Assembly (NCBI GenBank): GCA_958295935.1
Contig: OY282385.1
Coordinates: forward strand, 1,488,001-1,552,000
DNA from: an uncultured Dehalococcoidia bacterium
Lineage (GTDB): Bacteria; Chloroflexota; Dehalococcoidia; Lucifugimonadales; Lucifugimonadaceae
DNA length: 64,000 bases
Direction of reading: 5' to 3'
This document shows, in pieces, positions 62,539 through 64,000 of this stretch (within the stretch, counting starts at the first letter, position 1; each line of letters begins with the position of its first letter). The notes under the pieces are model-generated. The model did not search any database, had not been told where the DNA came from, and saw only the letters and a list, made by a program, of their open reading frames with translations. A program made the position numbers and the translations under genes.

Positions 62539-63384
62539 TTACTTTTCGATCGGAGCTCCCACCAGGCTGCCGTACTCCGTCCAGGAACCATCGTAGTTGC
62601 TGACGTTGTCATAGCCCAGCAACTGCGTGAGCGCGAACCAGGTGTGCGCCGACCTCTCGCCGATGCGGCAGTACGTGATCACGTCCGAGCTTCCGTCAAT
62701 GCCCTTCAAGCCGTATATCTCACCGAGTTCCGCAGCAGACTTGAAGGTCCCGTCGTCGTTCACCGCAGTAAGCCAAGGGATGCTCGCCGCGCCAGGAACG
62801 TGGCCGGAACGCTGCGCACCCTCCTGAGGCATGTTCTCAGGCGCTATCACCTCGCCGGAGAACTCCGCAGGCGAGCGAACGTCCACAAGTTGCGTACCCC
62901 CCGAGGCAACCGCCGCCAGAACCTGGTCCCTAAGCGCTCTGGTACTAGCGTCAGCGCTGGGAACCGAGTAACTGACCGCATCCGGGCTGGGAACCTCGTC
63001 GGTCAAGGCCCGTCCTTCTGCCACCCACTTGGCCCGCCCGCCGTTCATCAACTTGGCGTTGCCGTGACCGTACATCCGCAGAAACCAGAACGCCCACGCA
63101 GCAAACCAGTTGTTGTTGTCGCCGTAGAGTACGACCGTGGTGTCGTTAGATATGCCGGATCGACCAAGCACGTCCGCCAACTCTTCGCCGGTAAGGAGCT
63201 CGCGCGTAAGGGTGTTCTGCAGATCCGTCTGCCAGTTCCAGCCCACCGCTCCCTCGACGTGGCCCGACTCATAGGCCGAGGTGTCCACGTCTACCTCGGC
63301 CAGCACGATGCCCGGTTCGCCGAGGCGGTCGGCCACCCATTGCGTGTCCACGAGCGAGTCAGGGTGTGCGTATTCGGTTGTCAT
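62539..63384 (-). CDS. Thiosulfate / 3-mercaptopyruvate sulfurtransferase (two rhodanese domains)
   Basis: 281 residues. N-terminal inactive rhodanese domain (about 5-125, GDNNNWFAAWAFWFLRMYGH) and C-terminal active domain (about 150-275, QLVDVRSPAEF). The catalytic Cys239 lies in ITYCRIGERSAHTWFAL. GGGGGGA 8 nt before the ATG is a good SD. Transfers sulfane sulfur to cyanide or thiols. Same strand as the peroxiredoxin upstream (135 bases apart), so a redox/sulfur operon is possible. TST families end CRxGxR(S/T): here CRIGERS. Confidence 0.92.
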   Translation of the reverse strand: MTTEYAHPDSLVDTQWVADRLGEPGIVLAEVDVDTSAYESGHVEGAVGWNWQTDLQNTLTRELLTGEELADVLGRSGISNDTTVVLYGDNNNWFAAWAFWFLRMYGHGNAKLMNGGRAKWVAEGRALTDEVPSPDAVSYSVPSADASTRALRDQVLAAVASGGTQLVDVRSPAEFSGEVIAPENMPQEGAQRSGHVPGAASIPWLTAVNDDGTFKSAAELGEIYGLKGIDGSSDVITYCRIGERSAHTWFALTQLLGYDNVSNYDGSWTEYGSLVGAPIEK

Positions 63385-63519: not shown

Positions 63520-63981
63520 CTACAGCCCCTTGGCCGTTTCCAGAAGCGCAACCGGGTCGGGAAACTCCCCAGGCGGATAGGCGCGGGAGTCGCGTATGAC
63601 GCCGCCCCTGTCGATGACGAACGACGCCCGCCCCGCGATCCCCCGCTCGCCGTTGTAGATGCCGTATGCCTTGGCCACCGCCCCCTTTGGGTGAAAGTCC
63701 GCCAGCAGTGGAAAGCCCACTCCTCCCAGAGACTCGGCCCAAGCCTTCTGCACAGGCGCGTTGTCCACGCTTATCTCCAGCAGCCGTATCCCGGCGGCCA
63801 GGTAAGCCTCGTAGTTCGCACGGAACTCACTAACCTGATTGGTTCAGCCACCAGTGAAACTGGCCGGATGAAAGGCCAGCACCACCGGCGCCCCGCGGTA
63901 GTCGGACAGCGACACCGGGGCGCCTTCGTGTGACGTGAGCGTGAAATCCGGGGCTACCGTCCCGGCCTTGAGTGGGGGCAT
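63520..63981 (-). CDS. Probable selenocysteine-containing AhpE-like peroxiredoxin
   Basis: 153 residues with TGA at 63846-63844 read as Sec (Sec46). ATG 63981 is preceded by AGGAGT (SD spaced about 11 nt). Read through, the sequence is an AhpC/TSA peroxiredoxin of the one-Cys AhpE type: [12 protein letters not shown]...[31 protein letters not shown], then [41 protein letters not shown], all in one frame. The PxxxTxxC motif is PASFTGGU, so the stop sits exactly at the peroxidatic residue. A hairpin AGTTC-cgtgc-GAACT lies 21 nt after the TGA, matching the bacterial SECIS model. Alternatives are a sequencing error or nonsense mutation; without Sec the gene gives only 45 residues, and an independent start at 63768 lacks the active site. 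Confidence 0.75.
63813..63827 (-). promoter_or_regulatory. bSECIS-like hairpin following the in-frame TGA
   Basis: Minus-strand AGTTC (63827-63823), loop CGTGC, GAACT (63817-63813): a perfect 5-bp stem with a 5-nt loop whose second base is G, starting 16 nt and looping 21 nt after the TGA. This fits the published bacterial SECIS consensus (16-37 nt spacing, G among the first two loop bases). Confidence 0.55.
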
Positions 63982-64000
63982 ACGCGGGGAAACTCCTGTA

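Follow-up and report, generated by a model that had tools for sequence, protein, structure and literature searches.

A UGA codon very likely read as selenocysteine in an AhpE-like peroxiredoxin gene of an uncultured Dehalococcoidia bacterium

The type example of the selenocysteine (Sec, U) peroxiredoxins with the motif PxxxTxxU is the enzyme of Eubacterium acidaminophilum. Peroxiredoxins of this kind have long been known (PMC13188914, PMC9312934, PMC2398784, PMC5029168, PMC9402790). The selenoproteome tables of PMC13188914 and PMC9312934 contain peroxiredoxin (Prx) rows that are not split into AhpE and other subfamilies. Sec Prx were reported in 78 organisms (PMC5029168), and 253 marine Sec Prx sequences, which may include the AhpE-like type, were described in PMC2398784. 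AhpE was previously found in one class only, the actinobacteria; the AhpE-like cluster of the same study, with 1,489 sequences, has a broader range that extends to archaeal proteins (PMC5302317). The AhpE motif is given there as PxAF(T/S)xxC, and a Gly before the catalytic residue as a PrxQ trait. In the open-access literature, no description was found of an AhpE or AhpE-like enzyme with Sec, or of the selenoproteome of Chloroflexota, passing mention of either being possible.

The locus studied here lies in a 64-kb window, the whole stretch of DNA that was analyzed, at 1551520-1551981 of a single-contig genome (2.75 Mb, 95% complete). The features of the gene are listed below in window positions.

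63520..63981, minus strand: peroxiredoxin gene, 153 aa with the TGA read as selenocysteine, without cysteine
63844..63846, minus strand: in-frame TGA, codon 46, at the peroxidatic position of PASFTGGU
63993..63997, minus strand: AGGAG, probable ribosome-binding site, 11 nt upstream of the ATG (direct sequence reading)
63520..63768, minus strand: 82-aa open reading frame (ORF) with a GTG start, the sole piece of the peroxiredoxin frame in the standard ORF list

The frame runs from the ATG through a single TGA to a TAG stop, the protein ends in TAKGL, and the AhpC-TSA domain covers residues 7-131 (Pfam, E = 2e-35). A preliminary description of this DNA had proposed one continuous peroxiredoxin through the TGA, with the motif PASFTGGU and with the start, the Shine-Dalgarno sequence and both halves in the same frame. 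This was borne out, TGA 63846-63844 being the only interruption between the ATG and the stop. It had also expected ordinary annotation to yield the downstream half from 63768 alone, and the ORF list indeed gives just the 82-aa piece. A gene split in this way by routine gene finding is easily missed. UGA 63846-63844 very probably encodes selenocysteine in a one-domain 1-Sec AhpE-like peroxiredoxin, since the TGA falls at the catalytic site and is conserved, the genome holds Sec genes, the codons on both sides of it are under selection, and the nearest structures are AhpE.

The subfamily was examined by sequence, fold and phylogeny. The seven best PDB matches were all AhpE (2.4e-31 to 3.2e-29), followed by a 2-Cys Prx at 8.7e-17. 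The AlphaFold2 model (pLDDT 97.4) was searched with Foldseek, and the first 12 matches were AhpE (TM up to 0.95, rmsd 1.1), ahead of Sulfolobus Bcp. The protein has the AhpC/TSA fold and the peroxiredoxin residues T43, C/U46 and R118, which are invariant across 29 aligned homologous rows; R118 is presumably the catalytic Arg. PrxQ and Prx1/6 references were included in a phylogenetic tree, from which L135 (FSxxC, odd upstream frame) was left out; there, the window protein was placed in a clade of 16 rows, 15 of them Sec (95/90). The neighbors of this clade were an actinobacterial clade (99/95) and another Sec clade (98/92), the order of joining being open, and it lay outside the PrxQ (100/99) and Prx1/6 (99/97) clades.

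The 1-Cys AhpE of Mycobacterium and other Actinomycetota is the best match by sequence and fold, has the same length and likewise carries one catalytic chalcogen residue, whereas the window protein has Sec for Cys, the motif PASFTGGU, a separate clade in the tree and an origin in another phylum. In PASFTGGU, Ser replaces the Ala of the AhpE motif and Gly precedes the catalytic residue. This Gly is shared with PrxQ/BCP (PMC5302317), from which the protein differs in its score against the PrxQ/BCP model NF006960 (64.4 bits, below the cut-off of 140) and in its place outside the PrxQ clade. With the Sec peroxiredoxins of the PxxxTxxU type it shares the AhpC/TSA domain, the peroxidatic Sec and the bacterial Sec machinery; it differs from the PrxU model (NCBIfam NF040737, 233 positions) in its score of 76.8 bits, below the cut-off of 270, and in being a 153-aa AhpE-like form. 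The preliminary description had called the enzyme AhpE type. That holds for the nearest relatives by sequence and fold and does not hold for the published motif, and the tree leaves open whether the protein joins actinobacterial AhpE. Because the motif is incompletely matched, the Gly is of PrxQ type and the joining order is open, AhpE-like is what the data allow. Some Sec relatives have PLAFTGGU or PAAFTGGU (L066, L067). The Pro of PxxxTxxC was replaced by Val or Ile (e.g. FHVFDFTGGU) in L044, L048-L051, L053, L055, L059, L062-L065 and L074; these rows are relatives of the Sec AhpE-like group, and L059 among them is Cys.

Homologues were found at E ≤ 0.001 in 56 of 60 genomes, the window's own included. 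The alignment of 29 rows was made without L057, which has a masked run and also carries TGA at the catalytic codon, and alignment A2 was made without L044. The peroxidatic column was TGA in 28 of the 29 rows (window included) and TGT in one, a placement that chance does not explain. Other than at the catalytic site, no cysteine occurred in 15 of the 29 homologues. Substitution rates were compared on the two sides of the TGA. In seven close pairs, dN was 0.07-0.15 upstream and 0.03-0.17 downstream, with dS of 0.70-2.1; between the window gene and six relatives, dN was 0.25-0.40 and dS 0.87-2.1, one value being saturated. These values show purifying selection upstream and downstream of the TGA alike.

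It is very unlikely that the UGA is a working stop, which would leave a 45-residue piece and a downstream 82-aa ORF translated alone or not at all. The GTG at 63768 would provide a start for such an ORF. Codons 47-71, however, lie between the TGA and this GTG and belong to neither separate ORF, and in them pN was lower than pS in 9/9 pairs, most clearly among close relatives (pN 0.31 and pS 0.41, a weak contrast, for the window gene and L032). The site is moreover the catalytic column, where homologues have Cys in its place.

Even less likely is a TGA produced by a sequencing or assembly error, or by a nonsense mutation in a Cys peroxiredoxin gene undergoing decay. A lone TGA at one codon of one assembly would fit such an origin, as would the existence of Cys homologues, and an alignment check proposed in the preliminary description did find these, with TGT in L059 and TGC or TGT in other genomes of the class. 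A general occurrence of TGC or TGT in close relatives, which along with read evidence would have marked the TGA as an error according to that description, did not emerge: the codon was TGA in 29 of the 30 best homologous loci fetched (28 of 29 without the window's own), the exception being L059. It was TGA also in 34 of the best 80 of at least 593 loci from named genomes, and purifying selection persists on the downstream codons in relatives. Sequencing error explains poorly why independent genomes throughout an order keep the TGA. Cys versions among the homologues are as expected for a predicted Sec/Cys pair.

The Sec reading was further examined through the machinery of the genome. Only matches above the cut-off were counted, since control genomes also match related families. 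The genome search suggested in the preliminary description recovered all four components: selA (515.7 bits, cut-off 267.9), selB (337.2 bits, cut-off 242.25), selD (380.7 bits, cut-off 125) and tRNA-Sec (70 bits, cut-off 47; ARAGORN: tRNA-SeC, anticodon tca). The reading of UGA as selenocysteine thus passed one challenge set in that description, a genome with no Sec machinery, and the presence of this set also speaks against an error or nonsense mutation. Four places in the genome exceeded the tRNA-Sec cut-off (70, 50, 49.4 and 48.3 bits), and ARAGORN was run on the best alone. The genome-wide selA and selB matches above the cut-off were outside the window, in line with the earlier remark that it holds no selA, selB or selC; tRNA-Sec was not found within the 64 kb, where both tRNAs present were tRNA-Ser. 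One in-frame TGA was observed in selD itself (L026, C1:970798-971724), so the selenophosphate synthetase of this genome is probably a selenoprotein too.

Among the matches listed (hand-compiled, paralogues included), a TGA-bearing homologue was present in 40 of the 60 genomes. selA exceeded the cut-off in 36 of these 40, compared with 10 of the remaining 20 (Fisher test, p = 0.001, an optimistic value given the relatedness of the genomes). Four genomes had a TGA homologue and no selA above the cut-off (G007, G022, G023 and G027); they were 61-86% complete, and G023 had a partial selA match of 65.6 bits. A general code change in this lineage, with UGA read as another amino acid such as Trp, would be compatible with an in-frame TGA taken by itself and is barely credible, given the Sec set and the tRNA-Sec with anticodon tca, the lack of a second TGA inside the frame in any of the 29 aligned rows, the six aligned homologous genes read as ending in TGA, and the Cys carried at the site by the exchange partners. 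The frame, the conserved TGA, the Sec set of the genome and the two-sided selection all support UGA-encoded Sec at the peroxidatic site, the central proposal of the preliminary description.

Two hairpins downstream of the UGA were considered as candidate SECIS elements.

63813..63827, minus strand: 5-bp hairpin AGUUC-CGUGC-GAACU, candidate bacterial SECIS core, loop 21 nt after the UGA
63802..63830, minus strand: longer imperfect stem with loop CGAAC, 25 nt after the UGA, −8.5 kcal/mol

The published limits of the bacterial SECIS (bSECIS) model include a loop of 3-9 nt that has a G among its first two positions, a stem of 4-16 bp, a distance of 16-37 nt from the UGA and a minimum free energy (MFE) of at most −7.5 (PMC13188914). 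The 5-bp hairpin, with G second in its loop, lies within all of these limits except that on energy (−2.5 kcal/mol alone, vs −7.5). The preliminary description had presented it as fitting the bacterial model; its position, loop and second-place G agree with the model and its energy does not. The longer stem lies within the published limits and was rejected as a conserved SECIS, with 52.1% of cells paired, no better than in shuffles.

Pairing in the 5-bp helix was counted in 12 close relatives (11 distinct rows) of the 16 family members, L040, L042, L045 and L057 being left out, three of which have no helix there. In this set, 94.5% of cells were paired, and two of the five pairs were changed on both sides (11 distinct rows). 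The covariation score was 0.451, compared with 0.253 in shuffles, of which 0/500 scored as high, and with at most 0.095 in slid controls. Two of the five helix measures were not above shuffles (both-side changes, 220/500; pair types, 186/500). All five pairs were kept in 10 of the 16 family members, whereas 5,000 synonymous-codon trials averaged 3.1 such members and never exceeded 9; this control overstates the case for the helix because the rows are related. At the hairpin place, three members had one pair and three more had three or four. In the window gene alone, with amino acids held, five pairs arose by chance in 24% of synonymous versions.

The bSECIS check on the locus, also proposed earlier, yielded candidate hairpins, but the scan did not separate Sec from Cys homologues: a qualifying hairpin was found in 51 of the 63 Sec genes and in 34 of the 46 Cys genes (L135 left out), and folding z-scores were −1.03 for Sec and −1.21 for Cys (p = 0.90 for lower values in Sec). 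With Cys homologues scoring similarly, SECIS by energy alone was dropped as evidence. A SECIS downstream of the UGA is plausible and partly supported, and it does not carry the case for Sec.

The spread of the Sec and Cys forms was surveyed in named genomes with the C-terminal half as the query, and the best 80 of at least 593 confirmed loci were analyzed. The 34 TGA loci among these 80 were in records titled Chloroflexota, Acidobacteriota, Myxococcota, Planctomycetota, Sulfobacillus, Gammaproteobacteria (two) and unclassified (one), none in a record titled Actinomycetota. The other 46 were Cys, all from Actinomycetota, with 24 FTxxC (TGC 21, TGT 3) and 22 FSxxC. The catalytic codon of L119 was TGA, and L199 read WTGGU, a Sec form. 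Within the class, 119 genomes gave 34 matches of at least 120 bits (window's included), 23 with TGA and 11 with an open frame (hand count). Eight of the 11 open-frame matches were fetched and all had Cys codons, L204 among them grouping with E. coli Bcp (PrxQ-like). A strict rule of Sec in every relative outside Actinomycetota, which the 80 named-genome loci do follow, was rejected in view of this wider sample.

In a tree of 82 rows, the Sec/Cys label changed five times, two of these changes being forced by well-supported branches. Two loci in records titled Gammaproteobacteria, L066 and L068, have Sec AhpE-like genes that grouped with L067 of Chloroflexota (99/92 and 99/94 in two trees); mislabelled bins or gene transfer would account for this grouping. 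What looks new is the occurrence of Sec AhpE-like enzymes, alongside Cys ones, in Chloroflexota and a number of further phyla. We lean slightly towards the view that AhpE-like peroxiredoxins, of which earlier reports gave Cys forms from actinobacteria alone, are largely a selenoprotein family across Chloroflexota, Acidobacteriota, Myxococcota, Planctomycetota and others, one that has been under-counted through UGA stops and has exchanged Sec and Cys repeatedly.

Judged from its sequence, the predicted Sec peroxiredoxin is very likely functional. SelA would make Sec-tRNA(UCA) using selenophosphate from SelD, and SelB would carry the charged tRNA and read UGA 63846-63844 as selenocysteine, aided by an RNA structure that follows closely after the codon. 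Thr43 and Arg118 would hold the Sec46 selenolate, and its attack on the peroxide would yield a selenenic acid. As the protein is without a cysteine that could resolve the selenenic acid, the reductant would be an outside thiol, such as a thioredoxin-, glutaredoxin- or mycoredoxin-like protein or a small thiol.

A rhodanese-like gene (62539-63384, minus strand, two matched stretches) lies 135 nt downstream of the peroxiredoxin gene. No rhodanese match was found in the other 109 loci L032-L140 (tblastn, E ≤ 1e-5; most with 1.5 to 3 kb per side), so no conserved partner is shown, and a peroxiredoxin-rhodanese operon was dropped as a candidate because rhodanese does not stand beside the homologues. 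With rhodanese as the one gene compared, no conserved neighbor pointed to the reductant.

Further selenoprotein candidates were observed. At L147:6234-8345 (minus strand, about C1:2060233-2062344), a predicted lipoprotein of about 700 aa has AhpC-TSA domains in a tandem of three. Each domain contains a single in-frame TGA, read as the U of a U-G-x-C motif, which makes three predicted Sec in the chain. The reading frame probably terminates at a fourth TGA close to its end, and the lipobox was judged by eye. The whole chain matched the NCBIfam SelL-related redox protein model (135.5, cut-off 120). Stretches from five relatives were compared, with two adjacent single-domain genes in L187, one each in L188 and L189 and a two-domain fusion in L191; in L190 none was found by the pattern used. 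In the same order, L181 (G043:C1:128936-129472) has a Prx1/AhpC-type peroxiredoxin with a catalytic TGA (FTFVU) that grouped with E. coli AhpC (98/90) and is, by its predicted product, a second, separate Sec Prx type in the order.

The locus points to a selenium-based antioxidant enzyme, split by standard gene calling, in uncultured Dehalococcoidia and their relatives. The more interesting lead, here partly tested, is that AhpE-like enzymes may be largely Sec outside Actinomycetota. It prompts one to ask if gene truncation at UGA has contributed to the narrow distribution reported for AhpE. As this small enzyme occurs naturally with either Sec or Cys, it would allow the benefit of selenium to be measured.
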